A stretch of 64,000 bases of DNA from Theocolax elegans (lineage: Eukaryota > Arthropoda > Insecta > Hymenoptera > Cerocephalidae): contig CM047429.1 of the NCBI GenBank assembly GCA_026168455.1, positions 58,843,623 through 58,907,622 of the forward strand, in the 5' to 3' direction. A program made the translations under genes and the position numbers. This document shows positions 15,579-62,700 of this stretch, piece after piece (position 1 is the first letter of the stretch; the number at the start of each line of letters is the position of its first letter). Under the pieces are notes generated by a model, which was not told the DNA's origin, did not search any database, and saw nothing but the letters and a program-made list of their open reading frames with translations.

Positions 15579-15794
15579 GCGAGTGCGAGAGAGAAGGAGA
15601 GCGAGAGTGCGAGTGAGAAGGGGAGCGCGAGTGCGAGAGAGAAGGAGAGCGAGAGTGCGAGTGAGAAGGGGAGCGCGAGTGCGAGAGAAAAGGAGAGCGA
15701 GAGTGCGAGTGAGAAGGGGAGCGCGAGTGCGACAGAGAAGGAGAGCGAGAGTGCGAGTGAGAAGGGGAGCGAGAGTGCGAGTGAGAGGGAGAGC
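15579..15794 (+). repeat. 48-bp minisatellite in retrotransposon leader
   Basis: Four full 48-bp units (15,579; 15,627; 15,675; 15,723) plus a partial unit. Each is built from two related 24-bp halves ending in GAGAGC and GGGAGC. The plus strand is almost pyrimidine-free. Because 48 is divisible by 3, all frames stay open, which explains the long frames here. Confidence 0.9.
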
Positions 15795-16491
15795 GCGAAG
15801 CGGGAGCGGCCGAACGAGCTCGGGAACACTCGAGAAGGAGAGAGAAGGGCGAGTACGGGAGAAGCGCGAGTTCGGGCGCGCGCGAAGTGGGAAAGAGAAC
15901 GGAGAGGCGTACGTATGTAGTAAGGAAACGAGCGAGACTAGGTGAGCGCGGAGCGGGGCGTTCTTTAGGCAAAGAAGCGCGAAGTAGGATAGACGTAAGG
16001 CTAGGTAGGCAGGATCTTGCGCGCAAAATTCATATCAGCTATTCTTTTTTTCTTTCTTTTCTCGTACCGCATGTGATACAAGACCGGTCCAACAAATGAC
16101 TAAGCGACTTTAAGAGAATATTAAATTAAAGTTAACATTAACAAAGTGATGCGCTTCTTAAAAATTGAGAATTGACACATGTAATTAATTGCAGATGAAC
16201 TAACTCTGCTACTGTTCTTACGAACACAGTATGAGTTATTAAAGTTTGAGAAGAGGTTTCCCGGGCAAAAGGTTGGTCTAGACCTTCTAGAGAACAAAAT
16301 AATTTTTACAACAGAATCCGGATTCACATGTACCTTAGGTACGTAATAATAATTATTAAAATGTTTTTAAAAGTTACATTCATCGGCACAGCTGGTCTGC
16401 TGATGTGCTGCAGGCGTCGTACGTTCTCGCAGTGCATTAGTGGGGATGTGGTTGATTGCACTTTGTGTTCAAGTGCTAGTTGGCTACATTC

Positions 16492-16536: not shown

Positions 16537-16560
16537 TGATTGCAATACATGTTTTCAGAT

Positions 16561-19500
16561 ATGGATCACCTATCGGGAGATCAGATTCGAGTGGTATCTG
16601 AGGCAATCAAGGCTAGGCGCGATAAAGGGGAAGTACTGACCATCCCGGTGAAAAACCAGCTAATTACTTATCCCTCTACCGAATTAGGCAATTTAGGAAA
16701 TTCTGAAACAATTAAGTGGGATTTGAATGATGCGATAGAGATGGGTATTACAAGCGATGAGTTAAACGATGACGCGTTTGAGGTCGACCTGAGAGACGTG
16801 GACGTGAAGGGTGAAGAGATGAGCAGAGATATTGAATGCGAAACGGACTCTGAGATAAGCGATAAACGAGATTCGATAATAAACGAGAAGCGAAATTTCA
16901 GAGAAGCGAATGTGTTGAATAAAAATGCGCCGTTGATTATTGCTGATGAAAAATGTAACATAAGCATGCGAATTGAAAACAAAACTAAATTGCCTAACAG
17001 TAAAAGAGATGATTTTTCAGATGAGATGGGAATTGTGATGGACCGAGTCACACAAGTTATTGAAGAAAAATTGCAACCTGTTGAAAATCTCATGAGCCGG
17101 GTAGACAGTGCAGTCAGGGACATACATGTTTTCTTTGATTCAATGACGGGACGTGATATATCCCAACAGAACCATCTGAGAGAGAATATTGATGAGATGC
17201 GTAACCTCAACGATGAGATGCGACGAATGTGTTCGGAGATGAAAGGATGCATTCGCGAAGGACGAGAGGTGTTGAGGGAAATGAAAGAGGTAAGAGATGA
17301 GTTTTATGATAATAATGAAAAAGATTTTGAAGAAATTGCACATAATTCGACGGAAAATTCGGGTTATGACGTTATATCGAAAGCGGATATAATAAAATTA
17401 ATTAGATCAGAAGTAGAGAAAGAAAATAATTCGGAAACTAAAACTTTCAACAAACCAAATGACATGAGTGAGTTTAAAGACGCGATTAAATTACTAAATG
17501 TGAAAGATTCAAGTACAAAGAGAGATTATAAATTATCGGTACAAATGAAATACGAACTATTTATTGATTACTTTACTTCGGAATTAATTGCCTTGGATTT
17601 ACTGTATATTATTGATGAAGACTCTGAAAAACGAGACGCGACGGATAGAGAAATGTTAACGCGAGATCAGTTCAAAGTCAGAGATATTTTAATAAATCAT
17701 ATTGATCAAAATTATCATGCCAAAGTAATTGATATTAAAGACCCGAAAGAGATGCTGGAAAAAATTAAGGAAATTAAGAGATATGAATGTAGTTTATCGT
17801 CTGTTAACTTGAGGAAACAGTTGTATTCTTTGGTGTTCAATCGTAATGGGAGAGTGTCAGTTTTCGTGGACAAATTTGACGAGATAATAAGAACACATAA
17901 TAATATTACTCATGCTCAGCCGTTTGCTGAATCTGAGATCCGTGATGCATTTTATAATGCAATAGTAAGAGAAGTGCCACAGATTCACGAACTTAATTTT
18001 GTGAACAAAAACGCGACGGGTAAGGATCTAGACTATAATCAATTAAAAACTTTTCTTTTACAGCATGAAGCGATGAGAAAGGGAAGTGGAAATGCAACAG
18101 CAAGTACCAGTGTGGAGCCTAGAGCAGCTCTGGCTACCACACAAATGGAAGGGATGCGCTGCTATGAGTGCCATGCAAACGGGCACATCAGCCGAGATTG
18201 TCCCAGGAAAAATTCGGGGGAAAAACTATGCTACAATTGTAGACAATTTACACGGGACCACAAGGCTGAGAACTGCCCGAATCCTAGCACGAGAGATGTG
18301 AGTAACGAGAGACGTGGAAGAGGACGTGGTTTTATAAGGTATGCGAGATTTAATAAAGATAATAGAACTTTTGGTTACAAAAGACATTTTGGAAGTGATG
18401 GGAGAAATGTTAGAGATGCGAAAAGACAAAAACTTATAATAAATCGGGGAAAATTCAATTCATATAAACCTAAAGGTAGAGGGGCAAGTAATTTGCTAAA
18501 TTCGTCCAGAGGCAAGGAACCAAAAGCAGGTAAAATTTTAAATACTTTAACTGATGAAACAAATATTACGAATGTGAGATATGAACCCAGTAGTCGGAAA
18601 CTTTTAGCAAAATTCTTAGTTGACTCGGGAGCAACGGAGCATCTCACCAACTCTAGGCTAATTTTTACGAGATTTGATAATAAAGAAAACCTTATAAGAT
18701 GCGCAAATAAAAATCCAGAGGCGAGCTTAAAATCGGAGGGAGCGGGATGCGTAGGTATTAAAACGGGAGATAATAGAATTTTAACTTTAAATAATGTAAT
18801 TTGCGCGGAATCACTATCGGAAAATTTGCTATCCTTAAGAAAATTTGTAGACAAGGGACTAGGTATTTATTTGGATAACAAGAGAGTAGATATATTTGAT
18901 CCTATTTCGAATAAAACCTTTCTAACTGGAATATACGAGAAACCATACTGGTTGATTGAAGTAGAAATAGAAAAGCGAAGCGATACTTTAAAATCTAGTT
19001 CTGAAAAATTCAATTGCACACCAATTGCCTACCTTCTGACCCGAAGTAAAATTAAACAGACTTCTGATGTAAAATTAAATGAAATCCATGAAATCGAATC
19101 CCAGTCAGAAATTAAGAATGAAAGTGACGTGTTGAAAGTCGGTCCAAACTTTGAAACAACAGTGACAGATAGAAAATTGCATAACCCTAACGAAATAACT
19201 GTAAACACTGATGAAAAAATGAGATGTGAAAAGGAAATTAATTGCGACACAGATTTACCTGCCCAATCAAATAAGTCAATGTTATGGCATGTGAGAATGG
19301 GTCATGCCTCTTTAAATTATCTAAGAAACCTGCAGAAGAGATTTCCTGATTTTAAGGAATTGAGTGATGTAAAATTTGACAATTCCGTGCTTGAATGCGA
19401 AGTGTGTAAAATGACTAAAATGAACAGACTACCTTTCAATGAGACGAGGATGAGAGCATCTGCTCCATTACAAATAATACATTCGGACATAATGGGCCCG

Positions 19501-20280
19501 ATAAGTCCGAAATCACACCCAAAGGGATATCGTTTTATTTCTGTATTTGTCGATGATTATTCCCGATTGGCTCAGGCATATCCTATGAAATTTAAAAATG
19601 ATACAGGATCGTGTCTTGATCACTTTGTTAAAACTTCTAGAAATTTACTTGGACGAGACGCGAAAGTCTGTTACTTAAGATCAGATCAGGGCACAGAGTT
19701 TACGGGAGGCGATACAGTTAAAGTACTGGAAAAACTCGGAGCTGAACTACAGTTAGCATGCCCTGATACTCCTCAGCACAATGGAGTGGCTGAGAGATTC
19801 AATCAGACTATTCAGAAGAAAGTAAGAGCGCTGATGTTTGATTCCAAATTTCCAGAAAATATGTGGGACTTGGCTTTGAGTGCTGCTGTTTATGCTTACA
19901 ATAGAACTCCACACAAGTCAAATGAAATGGTTTCTCCTTTGGAAAAATTTAACCCAAATTATACCGTGAATTTAAAACAATTTAGGCGTTTCGGTTGCAT
20001 GGCTTATGTGAAGATTCAGAGAAAAATAGGTCCTAAGTTCAGACAGATTGCAATCACAAGTTTTCTTGTTGGGTACAAAGCCACCGGTTATGTCTTGTTC
20101 AAACCAGATGAGAATAGATTTTATGAAAGTCGTGATGTGAGATTCAATGAAAAAATTGTTTTTGGTGACAGATTCACAAAGAATCAAATACAAGACTGGG
20201 ATAATAGTTTTGAAAAGGTAAACAACGAGAAGTGGTTCTTGAATTATGAAAAGATGTGTCAAGGGAATCTGAGGAAATAA
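16561..20280 (+). CDS. Copia-type gag-protease-integrase polyprotein
   Basis: This frame of 1,239 codons encodes the structural protein, protease and integrase of the retrotransposon. Numbering from the ATG at 16,561, the N-terminal gag region (about 1-530) is charged. Two zinc knuckles follow: C534-C537-H542-C547 (canonical CX2CX4HX4C) and C557-C560-H567-C572 (longer second spacing). The aspartic protease has D688-S-G-A. The pre-integrase HHCC zinc site is H910, H915, C946, C949. The integrase catalytic triad is D976, D1042, E1078, which fits the DD35E spacing. I chose 16,561 because it has G at -3 and +4; an in-frame ATG at 16,549 has poorer context. The frame stops at 20,278 after integrase. 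Most insect copia elements continue into reverse transcriptase in the same frame, so this stop is atypical: a mutation, a sequencing error or a recoding site. Confidence 0.95.
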
Positions 20281-22004
20281 TAAGAAAGGAGGGAGTAGAA
20301 AAGAAAAAGAGAGGTCGCCCGAGAAAATTGCAAGCGAAAGAAAGCGAAACAGAAAAGGAACAAATATTAAGTGATCCGAAATATCATGCACTGCTAGCAA
20401 AAATTAACTGTGACCCACAGTCGTATAGAGAGGCGATGAGTTCAAACGACAAAGAAAATTGGTTGTCTGCAATTCAGAGTGAATTAGACTCAATGAACAA
20501 AAATGAAGTATGGGAACTGGTAGAACGATCTGAAATTATGAGAGGCGAAATTAAACCAAATATAATTGATTCTAGGTGGGTCTTGAAGAAAAAGATGGAA
20601 AAGGAAGGGACGTGTAGATATAAAGCGAGACTTGTTATAAGAGGCTTCAAGGATAGAAACGAATATGATTTGGTTGAAACATACGCACCTGTTTCGAGGT
20701 TAACCTTGATAAGATCGGTTCTAGCTATAATTAATAAATATGATTTGGACGTATATCAAATGGACGTGAAAACCGCTTTCTTGAACGGAACTATAAGCGA
20801 AGAGATATACATGGAATTGCCAGATGGCATGAATGTGACGAGCAAAGAGAAGCGAGAGAAGGTCTGTAAATTGAAGAAAGCGCTGTATGGTTTAAAAATC
20901 AGTCCGAAACGTTGGAATGAAAGGTTTACGGAAGCTGCTAATAAAATAGGTCTAGTCACTCATGATAGCGAACCATGTTTATTTACTTGGCGAGAGGGGA
21001 ATAAATTCTTGTTTTTGGTTTTATATGTTGATGATATGTTAATTGCTAGCAACGATAAAGTCCGACTAAGCGAGGTGAAAACTAAATTAAAATCAGAATT
21101 TGAAATGACTGATCTGGGAGAACCGAAATGCTTTCTGGGAATTAAGATTATACGGGATAGAGTAAATAAAACGTTGACATTGTCACAAGAAAACTATATA
21201 TTAAAATTGTTACAGAGATTTGGGTTTGGTGAGATGCATCCGCAAAGGACTCCGATGATTACAAACCAGGTAGCAAATCGTAAGAGACGCGATCGCGAAG
21301 AGAATGAGACAGAATCGGAATACAAAAGTGACGAACTCAAACTGAATGTTCCCTATAGAGAAGCCGTGGGTTCATTATTATATCTGGCAAATGTGACGCG
21401 TCCTGATATCACTTATGCAGTGAATATTGTCAGTAGGCATCAAATAAATCCGAATGAGGACGATTGGGAAATGATAAAAAGGATTTTTAGATATTTAAAG
21501 GGAAGTGCGTCCTTGGGTCTGAAATATACTGGCAATACTGATGATATACAAACCTATTCTGATGCAAGTTTTGCCGATTGTAAAAATAGTTTGACAACTA
21601 GTGGTTTTGTAATTAAATTATTTGGAGATGCGGTATCTTGGAAGACGCACAAGCAATCATATGTCGCACTATCTACCTGTCAAGCTGAGTATGTGGCAAT
21701 GAGCGAGGCGTGTCAATATAAAATTTCGTTGTTAAATTCTCTAAAATTGATTCTAATTGATGACTTTAAACCTATGATTTTATGGTGCGACAATAAGGCT
21801 GCTGGTGCAGCCACCCAAATGACAGGTAGCAATAAGTTACGACATATGATTGAAATTAAAGAACATTATGTAAGAGAATGTGTTAAAATGGGTTTTGTTA
21901 AAGTGATGTGGGTTAAGTCTAAAGAACAACTTGCTGATATATTTACGAAGCCGTTGGCTTTTGATTTACATAATAAACTAACCTCCAAGATAATGAATGG
22001 ATAA
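20250..22004 (+). CDS. Copia-type reverse transcriptase-RNase H, -1 frame
   Basis: This frame overlaps the end of the gag-integrase frame by about 28 nt and is offset by -1. It opens after a stop at 20,247-20,249 and has no good start codon of its own near its beginning, so it is probably a continuation of pol. The RT fingers and palm include [11 protein letters not shown] (catalytic Asp codon at 20,763) and the YVDD active-site box (21,024-21,035). RNase H carries acidic residues at codons 21,561 (YSDASF), 21,687 (CQAEY) and 21,789 (WCDNKAA). The C terminus has ADIFTKPL, a typical copia RNase H ending. All catalytic residues are intact. It copies genomic RNA to cDNA in virus-like particles. 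How it is expressed, by -1 frameshifting or not at all in this copy, is unresolved. Confidence 0.94.
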
Positions 22005-25586: not shown

Positions 25587-26560
25587 TAATCCCAAGTGAA
25601 AATAATTTATAAATTTTTTATAAAATTTTTATAAAATACATTTTATATAGTTTTTATAAAGAATTGGTCATATAAAAATTGTATAAAAAATACACTTTAT
25701 AAAATTTTTATAAAAGATATATAGAAGGACTATTTAAAAACTAAATTAAACGTTTTAAATGAGCTGCACCATCCTGCAGTAACGGATAAAAACATTTAGA
25801 TGACACGACCAAGAGGTTATGGACACCAAAAAAATTAGTATTTTAGCGCGACGAAAAATTACTGCTTCCACTGACGATATTGATAAAAAAGTCCACAGTT
25901 CCTCCATCGATTTGGCTGAAAGTTTTGCTTTTTTCACGCCTTTTTGCTTTTTTCAAAATTGTTGCATCCGGCGTACTGTTTAACATCGACTTGGACATCG
26001 TGAAGGTTAGACGGGGTCTGACCAAATGTTTTGTTCTGTGGTTGTCAAGTCAATATTCAACTTTTTCTTTGGTTGCTAATGAAAAATTGAATATTGACTT
26101 GACAACCACAGAACAAAACATTTGGTCAGACCCCGTCTAACCTTCACGATGTCCAAGTCGATGTTAAACAGTACGCCGGATGCAACAATTTTGAAAAAAG
26201 CAAAAAGGCGTGAAAAAAGCAAAACTTTCAGCCAAATCGATGGAGGAACTGTGGACTTTTTTATCAATATCGTCAGTGGAAGCAGTAATTTTTCGTCGCG
26301 CTAAAATACTAATTTTTTTGGTGTCCATAACCTCTTGGTCGTGTCATCTAAATGTTTTTATCCGTTACTGCAGGATGGTGCAGCTCATTTAAAACGTTTA
26401 ATTTAGTTTTTAAATAGTCCTTCTATATATCTTTTATAAAAATTTTATAAAGTGTATTTTTTATACAATTTTTATATGACCAATTCTTTATAAAAACTAT
26501 ATAAAATGTATTTTATAAAAATTTTATAAAAAATTTATAAATTATTTTCACTTGGGATTA
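25587..26560. mobile_element. Near-perfect long inverted repeat (480-bp arms)
   Basis: The left arm 25,587-26,066 and right arm 26,081-26,560 are reverse complements with essentially no mismatch that I can see apart from a C next to the loop. The spacer is about 14 nt. The ends read TA-ATCCCAAGTG and CACTTGGGAT-TA, consistent with insertion at a TA dinucleotide. The outer 150 bp of each arm is built from TTTTATAAAA-like subrepeats. The inner arm has frames of 60-86 codons that appear in both arms and match no family I know. It may be a fold-back element, a head-to-head duplication of a TA-inserting transposon or a hairpin-RNA locus. An assembly or library palindrome artefact cannot be excluded. 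Confidence 0.85.
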
Positions 26561-50855: not shown

Positions 50856-52097
50856 AGAAGTAGGTAAAGGGAGAGGAGAAGATACAAAAAAACTGTTTGT
50901 AGGAAAGAAAAAGACGGAAGGAAAGTGTGTGTCGCTACGCGCGATAAACGAAAATTTGTGGGTAAAAGTTAAACTCGGTCTCTCGACTTAGTTATACGGA
51001 AGATAACTGGAGTTGATTTTTGGTAGCGACGCGAAAATGTTCATCCCCTTTTCTAAGCATGTATACCTTACATACAGAGTGTAGCAAGCTAGCCCATTTA
51101 TATGGATGCGCGGGCGACATTGTCCGTGAAACGTCGAGAAGGGTAACAATGGAGTGTCTCTCGCGATAAACAATGGCCCCGCGGCGTTTCACATGCCACC
51201 GCGGCAAGTGGTATCGCCGCCCGCGATATTTTCTCGGGTGTAGGGAGGTTTTTTATCGTATTTCAGACCCGCCGGCATCCTCCCTCTCTCTCTCTCTCTC
51301 TCTTTTTCGCTCTTGCTCTTTCTTCCCCCTTGTTCCTTTATTTATGCCCGTGTCGCACACTCGTCATGCGACACGTACGCTTGTATGCGTGATGCTCTGA
51401 GCGATGGTTCATACTATTCTTCGTGAATGCTGCTGCTGGTGGTGGTGCTGGTGCTGCTGCCACGTCGCTACTGCTTGTGTACATGGATTTGCTTTACGCG
51501 GGCTACGAGAAAAAGTTAATGGAAATAGTGTTTCTCGATTTTGTCTTTTGCGCTTTTCAAATGCCGAATTGTAAAAACATGGATATGTTGATGCAGTTTA
51601 TGATTGAATAATACTCTATCGAAACGACTCGATTAACAAAATAATATTTTAATGCACAATATTTGCTTTGAAGTAATTATGTAGTGAAAATTATAAATAT
51701 TCAATATGCAGTATTATAAGTATTTAATATACAGTATTAGTACGTAGGTGATTACGCATTGATAAATATAATAATTTTTAATAATTTATAGTTACTTAAA
51801 AATTACTCGTAAAATAATAATAAATAAATAATTATAGTATATAATTTTTGTAATATAGTGTATAATTATAATGTTAATATATATATATTCGTATTTAAAT
51901 ATTAACATATGCAACTTTAGTAACTAAATTAATAACAAATTGTATATCCATACTTATACAGTATAAAATGTATTGAGAGTTAGGTGGCTCACAACTTGTG
52001 TTAAAATTTTCCTACAGGCATATAGCACTGCACACATAAGACCCAAAATATTCCATCCAACCCTTATTGAAATCAAAATGTCTACGTGATTAGTCTA
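50856..52097. other. Flanking DNA upstream of the repeat-RNA promoter
   Basis: Contains a GC-richer island (51,110-51,260), a (CT)n tract (51,289-51,304) and a short GCTG/GGTG-rich stretch (51,428-51,462), followed by AT-rich DNA. Frames of 60-75 codons show no recognisable domain. Confidence 0.45.
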
Positions 52098-52127
52098 CTC
52101 CCTCTGTAACTGTACCAACAGAGGGAG
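52098..52127. promoter_or_regulatory. 10-bp perfect dyad upstream of TATA box
   Basis: CTCCCTCTGT (52,098-52,107) and ACAGAGGGAG (52,118-52,127) are exact reverse complements separated by 10 nt. The dyad ends 18 bp before the TATA box, so a dimeric factor site is plausible, but no known factor is assigned. Confidence 0.45.
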
Positions 52128-52145
52128 CAAACTCGGTCATACAGG

Positions 52146-52183
52146 TATAAAAGGGGTGCCTCCGCGCTGACAGGTAGTTAGTC
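52146..52183 (+). promoter_or_regulatory. Predicted TATA-type core promoter
   Basis: TATAAAA at 52,146-52,152 is followed by a GGGG run. TTAGTC at 52,178-52,183 is one mismatch from the insect initiator TCAGTY and places +1 at A52,180, with the TATA box at -34. A strong splice donor follows 70 nt later. Confidence 0.55.
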
Positions 52184-52249
52184 AAGGTCGGAGCGTCGGA
52201 GGATTCTCTACGGTAGTGTCGTCAATGGCATCGGTGTACTGTTCCTGAG
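52180..52249 (+). ncRNA. Predicted leader exon of the repeat RNA
   Basis: A 70-nt exon from the inferred start site to the strong donor GAG|GTGAGTG (GT at 52,250). It is markedly GC-richer than the intron that follows. Its only ATG is followed after seven codons by TGA. Confidence 0.5.
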
Positions 52250-52759
52250 GTGAGTGAATTTTGTTGTGCATGAATATTTACTTGAATATTTAAATAATCA
52301 ATCGGTGATATAATAAATCTTTGTTATTTGTAATATTTACGTAAATAATCAATTGTGATTTAAGTAAATTAAAATTGCATTAATGTTTACAATTTTATCT
52401 TAAAATTGAAAGACAAGTTGATAAAGTTCATCAATAAATAAAGTTATGTAGTAAAATAAAATTTGAAGATAATAAAACATTGTTGTTTTATAATATTATG
52501 TTTAATCGAGATATTTAAATATCTATATTTCGAAAGTTTATCAGTGACGCGCGATTAAACATCATACTTTAGAATTAAAATATTAAAGTAAAATAAGTAG
52601 TTGATAGAAGTTTTCATAATATATTATTTACTATCCGCGAGAGTAAAAGCTTTTTATATTTGCTATACCGATATTACAGCATTGATTATTTATAATAATT
52701 TTTCAACAAATTAAAAAAAAATACAAGCATGAATTCAATATATATTTTTACTAGACTAG

Positions 52760-52935
52760 AGGTCTGCAATGGCTCCATCGGTGGAGTAGTGGACTCGTAC
52801 TCGGAAGTCTCGGGTTCGATTCTCTGTCTCTACCGAAGGATACAAGCAACACTTGGGGAATGTATTTTTAACAAGTGCTTTCTTGTTCAAGACATCGTAT
52901 GACCTCCGTTTCTCATTAGAGCAACGTTAAAATAT
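52760..52935 (+). mobile_element. tRNA-derived SINE-like sequence
   Basis: An A-box-like TGGCTCCATCGGTGG (52,770-52,784) and a B-box GGTTCGATTC (52,813-52,822) have tRNA-like spacing. No good tRNA cloverleaf forms, and a non-tRNA body ends in an A/T-rich tail near 52,928. This fits a SINE rather than a functional tRNA gene. Confidence 0.55.
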
Positions 52936-53394
52936 TAAAAAATATATTCACAGTATTAAAGATATATAATTAGTATTCCAAAGTGATTACGTAAAAAAAA
53001 TTAAAAAAAAAACATTGATTTGCCCGTGAGCAGTTGTTTCAATACATACAAAGTTGAAAAAATATTACAATTTATAAGTATGTATATTTAAAAGAGTTCA
53101 TTAATATAATTAAAAAAATCAAAAGACGCAAAAGCGCCTGACGCAAATATACAATATTATACAATATAATTTAATTATATAACGTATAAACAAAATTTGA
53201 ACGATAACTAAAGGTTACTCAAAATTCAAATTTGTATATTTCAAATGTACAATTTATTTTGAACTTGTTCAGTCTTGTCAGGTAAATTACTTACGTGACT
53301 TAAAATTTCTTAGAATACTAAATGTAATGTTAATGAACTCATAAGAAGTCGTAAAGTTAGCGTCCCCCGTTCAAGGGATGCAACGGTACCTGTC

Positions 53395-53441
53395 CCGGCG
53401 GCAGGTATAATTGCCGCCCGCCGGTCGAGCATACGACTCGA
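53395..53441. repeat. GC-rich double hairpin
   Basis: GGCGGCA (53,397-53,403) pairs with TGCCGCC (53,412-53,418); a competing pair is CCGGCGG/CCGCCGG. Next to it TCGAG (53,425-53,429) pairs with CTCGA (53,437-53,441). It is an isolated GC-rich spot in AT-rich DNA, about 270 bp before the exon array. Confidence 0.45.
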
Positions 53442-53711
53442 TTCATTGGTTTCCAATGCAATACAGAATACAAGATGTTATTACAATAAAGTTATGAACT
53501 TTAAAACTCGGAAAAAATATGTTCATACTCTAGTTGTAATATATACACATAATTAATTGCAAAACAAAATTCAAAAAAAAATATCTGGAAATAAGACCGC
53601 AAAACTGAAAAATACGCAATAATTTAATAAATACTACATCGCAACAACAAGGAGTATAATTACAGCAAAGGTAAGAAAATTTATACATATATTTCATCAT
53701 TTGCGCTGCAG

Positions 53712-53807
53712 CCAGCGAGGGATAAACAACAAATGACAACACCTGAAATTTAAGCAGTTATTTAACAAAACGACGTTATCACAGCATGGATTGCAAACCT
53801 TAGGCAG
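53712..53807 (+). ncRNA. Predicted exon 2, apparent founder of the array exon
   Basis: A 96-nt exon starting CCAGCGAGGGATAAACAAC after the acceptor TTGCGCTGCAG and ending GGCAG|GTAAGTAA. It aligns with only the 3' half of the array exons, where the same TTTGCGGTGCAG|CCAGCG sequence is present but buried inside the exon. It is more diverged than the array units. Confidence 0.55.
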
Positions 53808-54849
53808 GTAAGTAATTTACATGATCAAATGTGAGAAATTTTAATATTTAACTAACTCTATAAGCATAATTTTTCAGATCATCAGTGGACCAGCCAGCGA
53901 GGGATAAACAACAATTAAAAATACATGGATGTATAAAATTATATTCACTTGCATTTATTATTTGCGGTGCAGACAACGAGGGATAAGCCAAATTCAAGAA
54001 AACATGAAGAAAAGCAGTTATTTTTAAAGAAACAACGTCATCACAGCATGGTGTGCATAGCTCAGTACAGGTAAGTATTTTATACTAACAATTGTGTGAA
54101 ATTTTCAATATTTGACTAACACTTTTAGCATATTTTTTCAGGTCATCATCGAACCAGCCAGCGAGGGATACGCAGCAATCAGGAATTTTCGTAAACCAGC
54201 AATTTTTTACTTGCATTTATTATTTGCGGTGCAGCCAACGAGGGATAAGCAAAATTCAAGAAAACATGAATAAAGCAGTTATTTTTAAAGAAACAACGTT
54301 ATCACATCATGTAGTTCAAACATCAGTGCAGGTAAGTATTTTATATTATTCACTGTAAGAAATTTTCAATATTTGACTAACACTTTTAGCATATTTTTTC
54401 AGGTCATCATCGAACCAGCCAGCGAGGGATACGCAGCATTCAGGAACATTCGTAAATAAGCAGATTTTTACTTGGATTTATTATTTGCGGTGCAGCCAGC
54501 GAGGGATAAGCAAAATTCAAGAAAACATGAAGAAAAGCATTTATTTTTAAAGAAACAACGTCTTCTCAGTATGGTGTGCAAAGCACAGTCCAGGTAAGTA
54601 TATTATCAATTGTGAGAAATTTTCAATATTAAACTAACACTTTTAGCATATTTTTTCAGGTCATCAGCGTTCCAGCCAGCGAGGGATACGCAGCAATCAG
54701 GAACATTCGTAAATAAGCAGATTTTTACTTGGATTTATTATTTGCGGTGCAGCCAGCGAGGGATAAGCAAAATTCAAGAAAACATGAAGAAAAGCATTTA
54801 TTTTAAAGAAACAACGTCTTCTCAGTATGGTGTGCAAAGCACAGTCCAG

Positions 54850-54964
54850 GTAAGTATATTATCAATTGTGAGAAATTTTCAATTTTGGACTAACCACTTT
54901 TAGCATATTATCAATTGTGAGAAATTTTCAATTTTGGACTAACACTTTTAGCATATTTTTTCAG
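54850..54964 (+). repeat. Array intron with internal duplication (115 nt)
   Basis: This intron contains two consecutive copies of the segment TATTATCAATTGTGAG...TTTTAGCAT, about 49 nt each, so it has two branch-point motifs (CTAACCAC and CTAACAC) but a single final TTTTTTCAG. Confidence 0.85.
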
Positions 54965-55059
54965 GTCATCAGCGTTCCAGCCAGCGAGGGATACGCAGCA
55001 ATCAGGAACATTCGTAAATAAGCAGTTGTTCACTTGGATTTATTATTTGCAGTGCAGCC

Positions 55060-58000
55060 AACGAGGGATAAGCAAAATTCAAGAAAACATGAAGAAAAGC
55101 AGTTATTTTTAAAGAAACAACGTTATCACAGCATGTAGTTCAAACATCAGTACAGGTAAGTATTTTATATTATTCACTGTGAGTAATTTTCAATAATTGA
55201 CTAACACTATTAGCATATTTTTTCAGGTCATCATCGAACCAGCCAGCGAGGGATACGCAGCAATCAGGAACATTCGTAAATAAGCAGATTTTTACTTGGA
55301 TTTATTATTTGCGGTGCAGCCAGCGAGGGATAAGCAAAATTCAAGAAAACATGAAGAAAAGCAGTTATATTTAAAGAAACAACGTTATCACAGCATGTAG
55401 TTCAAACATCAGTACAGGTAAGTATTTTATATTATTCACTGTGAGACATTTTCAATATTTGACTAACACTTTTAGCATATTTTTTCAGGTCATCTTCGAA
55501 CCAGCCAGCGAGGGATACGCAGCAATCAGGAACATTCGTAAATAAGCAGATTTTTACTTGCATTTATTATTTGCGGTGCAGCCAGCGAGGGATAAGCAAA
55601 ATTCAAGAAAACATGAAGAAAAGCATTTATTTTTAAAGAAACAACGTCTTCTCAGTATGGTGTGCAAAGCACAGTCCAGGTAAGTATATTATCAATTGTG
55701 AGAAATTTTCAATATTGGACTAACACTTTTAGCATATTTTTTCAGGTCATCAGCGTTCCAGCCAGCGAGGGATACGCAGCAATCAGGAATTTTCGTAAAC
55801 CAGCAATTTTTTACTTGCATTTATTATTTGCGGTGCAGCCAACGAGGGATAAGCAAAATTCAAGAAAACATGAAGAAAAGCAGTTATTTTTAAAGAAACA
55901 ACGTTATCACAGCATGTAGTTCAAACATCAGTACAGGTAAGTATTTTATATTATTCACTGTGAGAAATTTTCAATATTTGACTAACACTTGTAGCATATT
56001 TTTTCAGATCATCATCGAACCAGCCAGCGAGGGATACGCAGCAATCAGGAACATTCGGAAATAAGCAGATTTTTATTTGCATTTATTATTTGCGGTGCAG
56101 CCAGCGAGGGATAAGCAAAATTCAAGAAACATGAAGAAAATCAGTTGTTTTAAAGAAACAGCGACATCACAGCATTTAGTGCAAACGTCAGTACAGGTAA
56201 GTATTTTATACTAACAATATTGTGAAATTTTCAATATTTGACTAACACTTTTAGCATATTTTTTCAGGTCATCTTCGAACCAGCCAGCGAGGGATACGCA
56301 GCAATCAGGAATTTTCGTAAACCAGCAATTTTTTACTTGCATTTATTATTTGCGGTGCAGCCAACGAGGGATAAGCAAAATTCAAGAAAACATGAAGAAA
56401 AGCAGTTATTTTTAAAGAAACAACGTTATCACAGCATGTAGTTCAAACATCAGTACAGGTAAGTATTTTATATTATTCACTGTGAGAAATTTTCAATATT
56501 TGACTAACACTTTTAGCATATTTTTTCAGATCATCATCGAACCAGCCAGCGAGGGATACGCAGCAATCAGGAACATTCGGAAATAAGCAGATTTTTACTT
56601 GCATTTATTATTTGCGGTGCAGCCAGCGAGGGATAAGTAAAATTCAAGAAACATGAAGAAAAGCAGTTGTTTTAAAGAAACAGCGACATCACAGCATTTA
56701 GTGCAAACGTCAGTACAGGTAAGTATTTTATACTAACAATTGTGTGAAATTTTCAATATTTGACTAACACTTTTAGCATATTTTTTCAGGTCATCATCGA
56801 ACCAGCCAGCGAGGGATACGCAGCAATCAGGAATTTTCGTAAACCAGCAATTTTTTACTTGCATTTATTATTTGCGATGCAGCCAACGAGGGATAAGCAA
56901 AATTCAAGAAAACATGAAGAAAAGCAGTTATTTTTAAAGAAACAACGTCATCACAGCATGTAGTGCACGCGTCAGTACAGGTAAGTATTTTATATTATCC
57001 ACTGAGAGAAATTTTCAATAGTTGACTAACACTTTTAGCATATTTTTTCAGGTCATAATCGAACCAGCCAGCGAGGGATACGCAGCAATCAGGAACATTC
57101 GTAAATAAGCAGATTTTTACTTGGATTTATTATTTGCGGTGCAGCCAGCGAGGCATAAGCAAAATTCAAGAAAACATGAAGAAAAGCAGTTATTTTTAAA
57201 GAAACAACGTTATCACAGCATGTAGTTCAAACATCAGTACAGGTAAGTATTTTATATTATTCACTGTGAGAAATTTTCAATATTTGACTAACACTATTAG
57301 CATATTTTTTCAGGTCCTCATCGAACCAGCCAGCGAGGGATACGCAGCAATCAGGAACATTCGTAAATAAGCAGATTTTTACTTGCATTTATTATTTGCG
57401 GTGCAGCCAGCGCGGGATAAGCAAAATTCAAGAAAACATGAAGAAAAGCATTTATTTTAAAGAAACAACGTCTTCTCAGTATGGTGTGCAAAGCACAGTC
57501 CAGGTAAGTATATTATCAATTGTGAGAAATTTTCAATTTTGGACTAACACTTTTAGCATATTTTTTCAGGTCATCAGCGTTCCAGCCAGCGAGGGATACG
57601 CAGCAATCAGGAACATTCGTAAATAAGCAGTTGTTCACTTGGATTTATTATTTGCAGTGCAGCCAACGAGGGATAAGCAAAATTCAAGAAATCATGAAGA
57701 AAAGCAGTTATTTTTAAAGAAACTACGTCATCACAGCATGTAGTGCAAACGTCAGCACAGGTAAGTATTTTATATTAATCACTGTAAGAAATTTTCAATA
57801 TTTGACTAACACTTTTAGCATATTTTTTCAGGTCATCATCGAACCAGCCAGCGAGGGATACGCAGCATTCAGGAACATTCGTAAATAAGCAGATTTTTAC
57901 TTGGATTTATTATTTGCGGTGCAGCCAGCGAGTGATAAGCAAAATTCAAGAAAACATGAAGAAAAGCAATTATTTTTAAAGACACAAGGTCATCACAGCA

Positions 58001-58400
58001 TGTAGTGCAAACGTCAGCACAGGTAAGTATTTTATATTATCAACTGTGAGAAATTTTCAATATTTGACTAACACTTTTAGCATATTTTTTCAGATCATCA
58101 TCGAACCAGCCAGCGAGGGATACGCAGCAATCAGGAACATTCGGAAATAAGAAGATTTTTACTTGCATTTATTATTTGCGGTGCAGACAGCGAGGGATAA
58201 GCAAAATTCAAGAAACATGAAGAAAAGCAGTTGTTTTAAAGAAACAGCGACATCACAGCATTTAGTGCAAACGTCAGTACAGGTAAGTATTTTATACTAA
58301 CAATTGTGTGAAATTTTCAATATTTGACTAACACTTTTAGCATATTTTTTCAGGTCATCATCGAACCAGCCAGCGAGGGATACGCAGCAATCAGGAATTT
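55060..58400 (+). repeat. Higher-order repeat copy 1 (13 units)
   Basis: Units with exons 55,227 through 58,354 recur in the same order 3,388-3,389 bp downstream. Private variants are shared one for one, such as GAGGCATAAGC, CGCGGGATAAG, GAGTGATAAGC and GACACAAGG. I count three differences by eye: a C/A in the intron at about 55,447 and two 1-nt length changes. Boundaries are approximate. Confidence 0.9.
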
Positions 58401-58448
58401 TCGTAAATCAGCAGTTGTTACTTGCATTTATTATTTGCAGTTGCAGCC

Positions 58449-61400
58449 AACGAGGGATAAGCAAAATTCAAGAAAACATGAAGAAAAGCAGTTATTTTTA
58501 AAGAAACAACGTTATCACAGCATGTAGTTCAAACATCAGTACAGGTAAGTATTTTATATTATTCACTGTGAGTAATTTTCAATAATTGACTAACACTATT
58601 AGCATATTTTTTCAGGTCATCATCGAACCAGCCAGCGAGGGATACGCAGCAATCAGGAACATTCGTAAATAAGCAGATTTTTACTTGGATTTATTATTTG
58701 CGGTGCAGCCAGCGAGGGATAAGCAAAATTCAAGAAAACATGAAGAAAAGCAGTTATATTTAAAGAAACAACGTTATCACAGCATGTAGTTCAAACATCA
58801 GTACAGGTAAGTATTTTATATTATTCACTGTGAGAAATTTTCAATATTTGACTAACACTTTTAGCATATTTTTTCAGGTCATCTTCGAACCAGCCAGCGA
58901 GGGATACGCAGCAATCAGGAACATTCGTAAATAAGCAGATTTTTACTTGCATTTATTATTTGCGGTGCAGCCAGCGAGGGATAAGCAAAATTCAAGAAAA
59001 CATGAAGAAAAGCATTTATTTTTAAAGAAACAACGTCTTCTCAGTATGGTGTGCAAAGCACAGTCCAGGTAAGTATATTATCAATTGTGAGAAATTTTCA
59101 ATATTGGACTAACACTTTTAGCATATTTTTTCAGGTCATCAGCGTTCCAGCCAGCGAGGGATACGCAGCAATCAGGAATTTTCGTAAACCAGCAATTTTT
59201 TACTTGCATTTATTATTTGCGGTGCAGCCAACGAGGGATAAGCAAAATTCAAGAAAACATGAAGAAAAGCAGTTATTTTTAAAGAAACAACGTTATCACA
59301 GCATGTAGTTCAAACATCAGTACAGGTAAGTATTTTATATTATTCACTGTGAGAAATTTTCAATATTTGACTAACACTTGTAGCATATTTTTTCAGATCA
59401 TCATCGAACCAGCCAGCGAGGGATACGCAGCAATCAGGAACATTCGGAAATAAGCAGATTTTTATTTGCATTTATTATTTGCGGTGCAGCCAGCGAGGGA
59501 TAAGCAAAATTCAAGAAACATGAAGAAAATCAGTTGTTTTAAAGAAACAGCGACATCACAGCATTTAGTGCAAACGTCAGTACAGGTAAGTATTTTATAC
59601 TAACAATATTGTGAAATTTTCAATATTTGACTAACACTTTTAGCATATTTTTTCAGGTCATCTTCGAACCAGCCAGCGAGGGATACGCAGCAATCAGGAA
59701 TTTTCGTAAACCAGCAATTTTTTACTTGCATTTATTATTTGCGGTGCAGCCAACGAGGGATAAGCAAAATTCAAGAAACATGAAGAAAAGCAGTTATTTT
59801 TAAAGAAACAACGTTATCACAGCATGTAGTTCAAACATCAGTACAGGTAAGTATTTTATATTATTCACTGTGAGAAATTTTCAATATTTGACTAACACTT
59901 TTAGCATATTTTTTCAGATCATCATCGAACCAGCCAGCGAGGGATACGCAGCAATCAGGAACATTCGGAAATAAGCAGATTTTTACTTGCATTTATTATT
60001 TGCGGTGCAGCCAGCGAGGGATAAGTAAAATTCAAGAAACATGAAGAAAAGCAGTTGTTTTAAAGAAACAGCGACATCACAGCATTTAGTGCAAACGTCA
60101 GTACAGGTAAGTATTTTATACTAACAATTGTGTGAAATTTTCAATATTTGACTAACACTTTTAGCATATTTTTTCAGGTCATCATCGAACCAGCCAGCGA
60201 GGGATACGCAGCAATCAGGAATTTTCGTAAACCAGCAATTTTTTACTTGCATTTATTATTTGCGATGCAGCCAACGAGGGATAAGCAAAATTCAAGAAAA
60301 CATGAAGAAAAGCAGTTATTTTTAAAGAAACAACGTCATCACAGCATGTAGTGCACGCGTCAGTACAGGTAAGTATTTTATATTATCCACTGAGAGAAAT
60401 TTTCAATAGTTGACTAACACTTTTAGCATATTTTTTCAGGTCATAATCGAACCAGCCAGCGAGGGATACGCAGCAATCAGGAACATTCGTAAATAAGCAG
60501 ATTTTTACTTGGATTTATTATTTGCGGTGCAGCCAGCGAGGCATAAGCAAAATTCAAGAAAACATGAAGAAAAGCAGTTATTTTTAAAGAAACAACGTTA
60601 TCACAGCATGTAGTTCAAACATCAGTACAGGTAAGTATTTTATATTATTCACTGTGAGAAATTTTCAATATTTGACTAACACTATTAGCATATTTTTTCA
60701 GGTCCTCATCGAACCAGCCAGCGAGGGATACGCAGCAATCAGGAACATTCGTAAATAAGCAGATTTTTACTTGCATTTATTATTTGCGGTGCAGCCAGCG
60801 CGGGATAAGCAAAATTCAAGAAAACATGAAGAAAAGCATTTATTTTTAAAGAAACAACGTCTTCTCAGTATGGTGTGCAAAGCACAGTCCAGGTAAGTAT
60901 ATTATCAATTGTGAGAAATTTTCAATTTTGGACTAACACTTTTAGCATATTTTTTCAGGTCATCAGCGTTCCAGCCAGCGAGGGATACGCAGCAATCAGG
61001 AACATTCGTAAATAAGCAGTTGTTCACTTGGATTTATTATTTGCAGTGCAGCCAACGAGGGATAAGCAAAATTCAAGAAATCATGAAGAAAAGCAGTTAT
61101 TTTTAAAGAAACTACGTCATCACAGCATGTAGTGCAAACGTCAGCACAGGTAAGTATTTTATATTAATCACTGTAAGAAATTTTCAATATTTGACTAACA
61201 CTTTTAGCATATTTTTTCAGGTCATCATCGAACCAGCCAGCGAGGGATACGCAGCATTCAGGAACATTCGTAAATAAGCAGATTTTTACTTGGATTTATT
61301 ATTTGCGGTGCAGCCAGCGAGTGATAAGCAAAATTCAAGAAAACATGAAGAAAAGCAATTATTTTTAAAGACACAAGGTCATCACAGCATGTAGTGCAAA

Positions 61401-61789
61401 CGTCAGCACAGGTAAGTATTTTATATTATCAACTGTGAGAAATTTTCAATATTTGACTAACACTTTTAGCATATTTTTTCAGATCATCATCGAACCAGCC
61501 AGCGAGGGATACGCAGCAATCAGGAACATTCGGAAATAAGAAGATTTTTACTTGCATTTATTATTTGCGGTGCAGACAGCGAGGGATAAGCAAAATTCAA
61601 GAAACATGAAGAAAAGCAGTTGTTTTAAAGAAACAGCGACATCACAGCATTTAGTGCAAACGTCAGTACAGGTAAGTATTTTATACTAACAATTGTGTGA
61701 AATTTTCAATATTTGACTAACACTTTTAGCATATTTTTTCAGGTCATCATCGAACCAGCCAGCGAGGGATACGCAGCAATCAGGAATTT
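58449..61789 (+). repeat. Higher-order repeat copy 2 (13 units)
   Basis: The downstream copy of the 13-unit block. Between the copies the exon at 58,354-58,544 has a hybrid middle (CGTAAATCAGCAGTTGTTAC) that mixes two exon types, as expected at an unequal crossover point. Confidence 0.9.
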
Positions 61790-62264
61790 TCGTAAACCAG
61801 CAATTTTTTACTTGCATTTATTATTTGCGTTGCAGCCAACGAGGGATAAGCAAAATTCAAGAAAACATGAAGAAAAGCAGTTATTTTTAAAGAAACAACG
61901 TTATCACAGCATGTAGTTCAAACATCAGTACAGGTAAGTATTTTATATTATTCACTGTGAGAAATTTTCAATATTTGACTAATACTTTTAGCATATTTTT
62001 TCAGATCATCATCGAACCAGCCAGCGAGGGATACGCAGCAATCAGGAACATTCGGAAATAAGCAGATTTTTACTTGCATTTATTATTTGCGGTGCAGCCA
62101 GCAAGGGATAAGCAAAATTCAAGAAACATGAAGAAAAGCAGTTGTTTTAAAGAAACAGCGACATCACAGCATTTAGTGCAAACGTCAGTACTGGTAAGTA
62201 TTTTATACTAACAATTGTGTGAAATTTTCAATATTTGACTAACACTTTTAGTATAATTTTTCAG

Positions 62265-62378
62265 GTCATCATCGAACCAGCCAGCGAGGGATAAGCAAAA
62301 TTCAAGAAAACATGAAGAAAAGCGTTTATTTTTAAAGAAACAACGTCTTCTCAGTATGGTGTCCAAAGCACAGTCCAG
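62265..62378 (+). ncRNA. Shortened array exon (114 nt)
   Basis: The last array exon joins the 5' start of a normal exon directly to its 3' half at the shared CCAGCGAGGGATA motif, removing about 77 nt. Both splice sites are intact. Recombination between the two motif copies inside one exon explains it. Confidence 0.8.
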
Positions 62379-62444
62379 GTAAGTATATTATCAATTGTGA
62401 GAAATTTTCAATATTTGACTAACACTATTAGCATATTTTTTCAG

Positions 62445-62700
62445 GTCATCAGCGGACCAGCCAGCGAGGGATACGTAACAATCACGAACATTCGGAAATA
62501 AGCAGTTTTTTTTACTAATCCGACTTTATCGCAGCATGGAGTATGAACTTTAATGCTTGTTAGTTTTTTTGTGTTTTTAATTGCTATTATACAACAAATT
62601 TTTTTTAACTGCTTCATAATTTTATTATTTTCACCTAAGCAGCTAGAGACGGAGTCGAATGGTAGCTGATAATTAAACATAAGGTGATAATAGGTACATT
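62445..62700 (+). ncRNA. Predicted terminal exon (start of)
   Basis: It begins GTCATCAGCGGACCAGCCAGCG after TTTTTTCAG and resembles array exons to about 62,500. It then diverges, keeping a trace of CGCAGCATGGAG (62,532-62,543), and no donor follows. ATTAAA at 62,672 is the nearest poly(A)-signal variant; AATAAA at 63,451 is an alternative. Confidence 0.5.

Follow-up and report, generated by a model that had tools for sequence, protein, structure and literature searches.

The 64,000-nucleotide stretch of Theocolax elegans DNA analysed here (the window) holds, at 53,712-62,444, a run of 34 consecutive exon-intron units in which donors and acceptors, 34 of each in a donor/acceptor scan, alternate in register. 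The best explanation, to which we give a probability of roughly 60%, is a spliced noncoding RNA gene that has grown by duplication of its unit and would make a multivalent product; we infer that its distribution is narrow. That the array is transcribed and spliced seems quite likely. A role of the RNA as a multivalent scaffold or sink is a tentative proposal that we regard as possible but less likely than not.

Anatomy of the array

TRF reports the repeat as a ~261-262-bp array at 53,672-62,297, with edge copies that reach 62,473. On the plus strand, the array opens with exon 2 (96 nt; 53,712-53,807), a diverged B-type module, followed by the first short intron (70 nt; 53,808-53,877). The scan then places 32 units, u2-u33 (53,878-62,264), each made of a composite exon of 189-193 nt and an intron of 66, 71 or, once, 115 nt. 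After them come the last internal exon (114 nt; 62,265-62,378), in which an A-type head is fused to a B-type module, the last short intron (66 nt; 62,379-62,444) and the terminal exon. Across the array, 26 introns measure 71 nt, six 66 nt, one 70 nt and one 115 nt, and the exons that precede them measure 96 nt (one), 189-193 nt (32) and 114 nt (one). An earlier note on this DNA had described 33 such units with introns of 66 or 71 nt. The regular array stands, but the units number 34 (33 is the count of exons between the first and last short introns), and the two lengths hold for 32 of the 34 introns.

In its anatomy the locus is indeed not a simple satellite and, as had also been claimed, donor, branch-like site and acceptor are present in 34/34 units. 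The donor CAG/GTAAGTA is exact in 33 of the 34, as is CAGGTAAGTA, the remaining donor reading CTGGTAAGTA; GTAAGTA and the TTTTTCAG acceptor are kept in every unit (34/34), and no intron lacks a branch-like sequence, ACTAAC or ACTAAT (34/34). The 115-nt intron (54,850-54,964, plus strand; TRF and scan) carries an internal 49-bp duplication with both splice sites whole, which we counted in favour of splicing use. The duplicated segment takes in the branch-like site and a second TTTTAG. An extra AG is found in all 34 array introns, 13 nt before the used acceptor and ~9 nt downstream of the branch A; its use could lengthen exons by 13 nt. Not being an ideal arrangement, this extra AG counts against the splicing reading.

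The repeat is confined to this place in the window. Exact copies of the 9-mer CAGGTAAGT number 33 in the array and 0 elsewhere in the 64 kb, both strands included. With up to 3 mismatches allowed, the motif CCAGCGAGGGATAAGC occurs 67 times, always in the array and always with at most 2 mismatches, where shuffles give an expected count of 0.06. Outside the array, the 64-kb window has no CCAGCGAGGGATAAGC copy within 3 mismatches and only short, chance-level matches to the repeat unit.

Putative leader, promoter and transcript end

Upstream of the array, a TATA box, TATAAAAGG (52,146-52,154, plus strand), is the sole TATAAAAGG, with GG, on the plus strand of the window, although TATAAAA as such is common in this AT-rich DNA (59 on the plus strand, including the one at 52,146). 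Just before it, at 52,098-52,127, lies a 10-bp inverted repeat, CTCCCTCTGT-N10-ACAGAGGGAG, a possible factor site. A putative exon 1 of 70 nt (52,180-52,249, plus strand) would start at an Inr-like TTAGTC, chosen by eye ~34 nt past the start of the TATA box, and end at the donor GAG/GTGAGT. The putative intron 1 (52,250-53,711, plus strand) would span 1.46 kb and end in TTTGCGCTGCAG, and exon 2 opens exactly with CCAGCGAGGGATAA. TATA box, inverted repeat, Inr-like sequence and donor all fit a leader exon; the placements of the intron-1 acceptor and of the transcript end are guesses. The terminal exon, a diverged copy with its T module at 62,461, would have its first part at 62,445-62,677 on the plus strand, with candidate poly(A) signals at 62,672 (ATTAAA), 63,262 (ATTAAA), 63,451 (AATAAA) and 63,479 (ATTAAA). 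The earlier note's outline of a TATA promoter and leader donor upstream and a diverged final copy downstream agrees with these sequence features (TATAAAAGG at 52,146, the donor at 52,249 and the terminal exon).

Within 53,712-62,444, AATAAA occurs once on the plus strand and 41 times on the minus strand, a skew that speaks for the gene, though in a repeat it amounts to little more than one observation. A sigma-70-type promoter scan of the leader stayed near chance level, and its model has no bearing on an insect. Inside the putative intron 1, the stretch 52,770-52,840 has a tRNA-like B box, GGTTCGATTC, and resembles a tRNA-derived SINE; ARAGORN found no tRNA in the window.

Copy number and conservation between units

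Twelve of the 34 units, u20-u31, match u7-u18 at 99.6-100% identity with a lag of 13 units. The two 3.35-kb stretches (55,053-58,407 and 58,442-61,796, plus strand) differ when aligned at three positions, one substitution and two single-base indels, and stem either from a recent duplication or from the way the sequence was assembled. Independent units thus number ~22, fewer than the earlier note implied. We left u20-u31 out of the conservation counts because of this near-identity, so that 22 of the 34 units were used. A core set of 19 also drops the diverged edge units u1, u2 and u34, whose mean identities to the other units are 78%, 85% and 86%. Since the copies are homogenised, columns are fairer units of counting than copies. 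The p-values below serve as guides, because copies are non-independent and the element was picked after inspection.

Of 262 columns, 139 do not vary among the 22 units. Invariant stretches are longest at CCAGCCAGCGAGGGATA (17 nt, exonic, 13-29 nt into the exon), ATTTTCAAT (9 nt, adjoining the branch site), GGTAAGTA (8 nt) and TTTTTCAG (8 nt); an invariant run of 17 appeared in 0.1% of 20,000 column shuffles (p 0.001). Variable columns make up 1 of 10 at the donor and 2 of 14 at the acceptor, against 112 of 205 elsewhere (Fisher p 0.006 and 0.003), and the branch site is not significant (p 0.17). When the variability profile was shifted circularly, only the true register, 1 of 262, made the donor and the acceptor both fall within invariant runs of 8 nt or longer. 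The same shift test on the 19 core units was weaker (13/262), from which it follows that the edge copies carry much of this signal, and in the core neither donor, acceptor nor branch site is significantly more invariant than the rest (Fisher p 0.11, 0.11 and 0.57). Differences between the copies spare the splice signals, clearly with the diverged edge units included and only weakly without them.

A 13-mer, CCAGCGAGGGATA, provides an internal comparison. All 35 copies that lie at most 16 nt past a live acceptor are intact, compared with 10 of the 32 that sit 93-95 nt inside the exon, beside a dead one. Leaving out u20-u31, the figures are 23/23 by live acceptors versus 6/20 internally. In columns, none of 13 is variable in the A half versus 6 of 13 in the B half (p 0.007), and the remainder of the two halves is equally variable (44/76 in A, 45/82 in B). 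Whether CCAGCGAGGGATA survives correlates with its nearness to a live 3' splice site and not with its sequence alone.

Composite exon and proposed origin of the unit

Cut at CCAGCGAGGGATAAGC, the array gives 32 A modules and 35 others, namely 32 B modules in the composite exons and those of exon 2, the 114-nt exon and the terminal exon. The A half resembles the terminal exon (identity over 33 aligned columns is 85%, versus 61% between A and B there), and the B half resembles exon 2 (78% over 95 columns, 82% in the 3' part). Between the halves, the tract ATTTATTATTTGCGGTGCAG resembles the intron 1 end ATTTCATCATTTGCGCTGCAG when compared by eye. Judged from these likenesses, the 190-nt exon looks like a terminal-exon head joined to an intron-1 tail with a dead acceptor and then to exon 2. 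The fit is imperfect: over columns 14-47 the B half matches exon 2 and the terminal exon equally well (64% each), and u2 has an A half whose start is more like exon 2. The possibility that the composite exon hides a further intron (GTAAAT...GTGCAG, ~45 nt) was rejected because only 24 of the 32 exons have the GT, seven having GG and one neither.

We propose that the ancestor had three parts, a leader exon, exon 2 and a terminal exon, and that a block reaching from the tail of intron 1 across exon 2 and intron 2 and on into terminal-exon sequence was duplicated again and again. Every such duplication would have joined a terminal-exon head to an intron-1 tail and exon 2, leaving the composite 190-nt exon with its dead central acceptor. 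The order of the duplications is part of this proposal.

Surroundings of the array

A Copia-type LTR retrotransposon occupies 16,540-22,001 on the plus strand. Its gag/integrase frame encodes 1,246 aa and its reverse-transcriptase frame 584 aa; the two lie in different frames and overlap slightly. These are the only protein genes recognised in the window, among the 20 of 109 listed ORFs that were scanned. Within the best 120 relatives listed for the reverse transcriptase, the first named is from the bee Anthophora retusa, followed by the wasps Bracon and Trichogramma, in keeping with a hymenopteran window. The stretch at 26,006-26,141 (plus strand) matches several unrelated miRNA precursor models, all below their cut-offs, and is perhaps a palindromic mobile element. 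At 15,581-15,795, TRF finds a GA-rich 24/48-bp tandem repeat with long low-complexity reading frames on both strands.

Comparison with known RNAs

To our knowledge, mammalian FIRRE lacks such a head-to-tail succession of exons and minimal introns, and the analogy is one of layout only, a repeat common to many exons of one lncRNA. Its RRD repeat overlaps 7 of the 13 exons in human and 11 of the 23 in mouse and is a nuclear retention signal (PMC4820808). SNHG14, the mammalian SNORD115/SNORD116 host, is described as having 29 and 48 tandem intron units (PMC11608373). Like the array, it strings tens of consecutive similar noncoding exon-intron units into one spliced transcript. There, however, each intron holds a box C/D-like snoRNA, whereas the introns here are minimal and without a C box, and the protected sequence is exonic. 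In view of these tandem units and of the repeated exons of FIRRE (PMC11608373 and PMC4820808), the claim that no described RNA has such a structure was overstated. Hsr-omega of Drosophila, offered earlier as an analogue, is a long noncoding RNA of omega speckles with ~280-bp tandem repeats over ~5-15 kb (PMC9865238). It is a weaker analogue, since its repeats are described as forming one stretch after two exons, with no mention of an intron for each (PMC9865238), unlike the present units, which each have intron signals. The 680 bp upstream of the array's putative start (51,501-52,180) contain no perfect three-box heat-shock element.

ANTSR was considered because it is a hymenopteran noncoding gene without homology between lineages, in an interval free of protein genes. 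This sex-determining lncRNA of aculeate Hymenoptera is described as showing no sequence homology between lineages and as occupying an interval of 17-73 kb that contains no protein genes (PMC12799146). In L. humile it comprises four exons and its transcript measures 793 bp, whereas in O. bicornis it has two exons; COPA, CRELD2, miR-315 and THUMPD3 are its neighbours (PMC12594375). So small a described form, four exons or two, is unlike an array of more than 30 exons. The window gave no miR-315 (at most 3 mismatches to its sequence, and Rfam), and none of the flanking genes was recognised in the 20 of 109 listed ORFs scanned; those genes may lie beyond the window, which may not reach them. For kakusei (PMC1847703), the portion consulted states no exon or repeat structure for comparison. 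The portions of the open-licence literature consulted contain no account of such an array. It differs from the known kinds in its minimal introns, its composite exon with a fossil acceptor, a conserved element that is exonic rather than intronic, and its insect host. Fourteen viral contigs hold a 16-mer of the repeat once each and none as an array, and viral copies of the array were rejected on these single 16-mers. One exact 31-mer had 0 matches in bacterial and archaeal genomes.

Alternative readings

An RNA of over 6 kb that repeats a 190-nt module without a sustained frame, as the earlier note predicted, is what the joined repeat part would give: it comes to 6,306 nt, and its open runs are at chance level. 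Open stretches of up to 126 codons might suggest a repeat-protein gene read across the spliced exons, but 126 aa is what the composition yields by chance (mean 124 in 200 Markov resamples). The joined transcript (to 63,300) has 82-93 stops per frame, 25 of the 34 exons are not multiples of three, and the one frame searched, 57,288-57,626, produced no protein candidate; on the open runs and this search we rejected protein coding, and a repeat protein has almost no chance of being the explanation. It is also quite improbable that the tandem exons exist only to carry snoRNA, miRNA or piRNA. The exon stretch TATCACAGCATGG shares a seed-like 8-mer with the miR-2 family, which could speak for such a host, but the array has no Rfam match at E up to 1 (nor the whole window any family at gathering scores), and despite the 8-mer a miRNA source was rejected. 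A C box is present in 0 of 34 introns and CTGA in 2 of 34, which disposed of a snoRNA host even though the tandem exon-intron layout is as at SNORD115/116 (PMC11608373). Folding revealed nothing stable or unusual (z +1.06 for one exon, -0.62 to +0.98 for seven single modules), which speaks against small-RNA cargo; a structured repeat or ribozyme was rejected on these folds and on the array's lack of Rfam matches.

A local satellite or minisatellite might instead have amplified an intron-bearing block of an ordinary low-level lncRNA, its uniform signals coming from unequal exchange and not from use. Strong homogenisation and the near-identical 3.35-kb duplication agree with such an origin, as does the lack, in the 19 core units, of any significant excess of invariance at splice-site columns. 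Against it, the edge units diverge elsewhere yet retain their splice signals, CCAGCGAGGGATA decays only where it is not beside a live acceptor, and the rest of the window has no motif copy within 3 mismatches and only chance-level unit matches. Selection for splicing fits better than an inert satellite because of this CCAGCGAGGGATA pattern and because the longest mutation-free runs fall on the element, donor, branch region and acceptor; we consider the satellite rather unlikely. Very improbable is an array of 17-mers that acts as DNA, as an insulator or enhancer array bound by a DNA-binding protein with transcription incidental. DXZ4 exemplifies an insulator/enhancer repeat array, and 35 intact, regularly spaced sites are present here. 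The R0 repeat of FIRRE, in up to 40 copies, is bound by CTCF and RAD21 (PMC4820808). Protection in our array is confined, however, to a transcript-related context, beside live acceptors, whereas a DNA-binding protein should make no distinction between A and B copies.

A model for the array and its RNA

In the spliced noncoding gene that we favour, each unit keeps the signals of a short intron, a perfect U1-type donor, a branch site and a T-rich acceptor. Such short introns may be recognised through strong splice sites together with an exonic element just past the 3' splice site. The 17-nt CCAGCCAGCGAGGGATA is probably that exonic splicing enhancer, or else a docking site for a single, sequence-specific RNA-binding protein. 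Spliced together, the units would yield a transcript longer than 6.3 kb in which a protected element recurs every ~190 nt, and it could serve as a multivalent platform or sink for the bound protein, most plausibly in the nucleus. It is tempting to speculate further that this is an architectural RNA of Hymenoptera, selection having amplified splicing itself by copying a whole splice unit over 30 times. More than 30 junctions in one transcript, each with a 17-nt enhancer, would then form a splicing-factor sink or platform, and copy number could differ among haplotypes and so act as a dosage dial, a scenario that we think distinctly unlikely.

If transcribed, the array would offer a stepwise view of how a plain three-exon noncoding gene becomes a repeat RNA of more than 30 exons. 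Its built-in control, the 13-mer beside live and beside dead acceptors, helps to separate selection for splicing from mere homogenisation. A transcribed array would also provide an insect tandem-exon noncoding RNA to compare with SNHG14 and FIRRE of mammals, and a testable exonic element for the splicing of very short introns.
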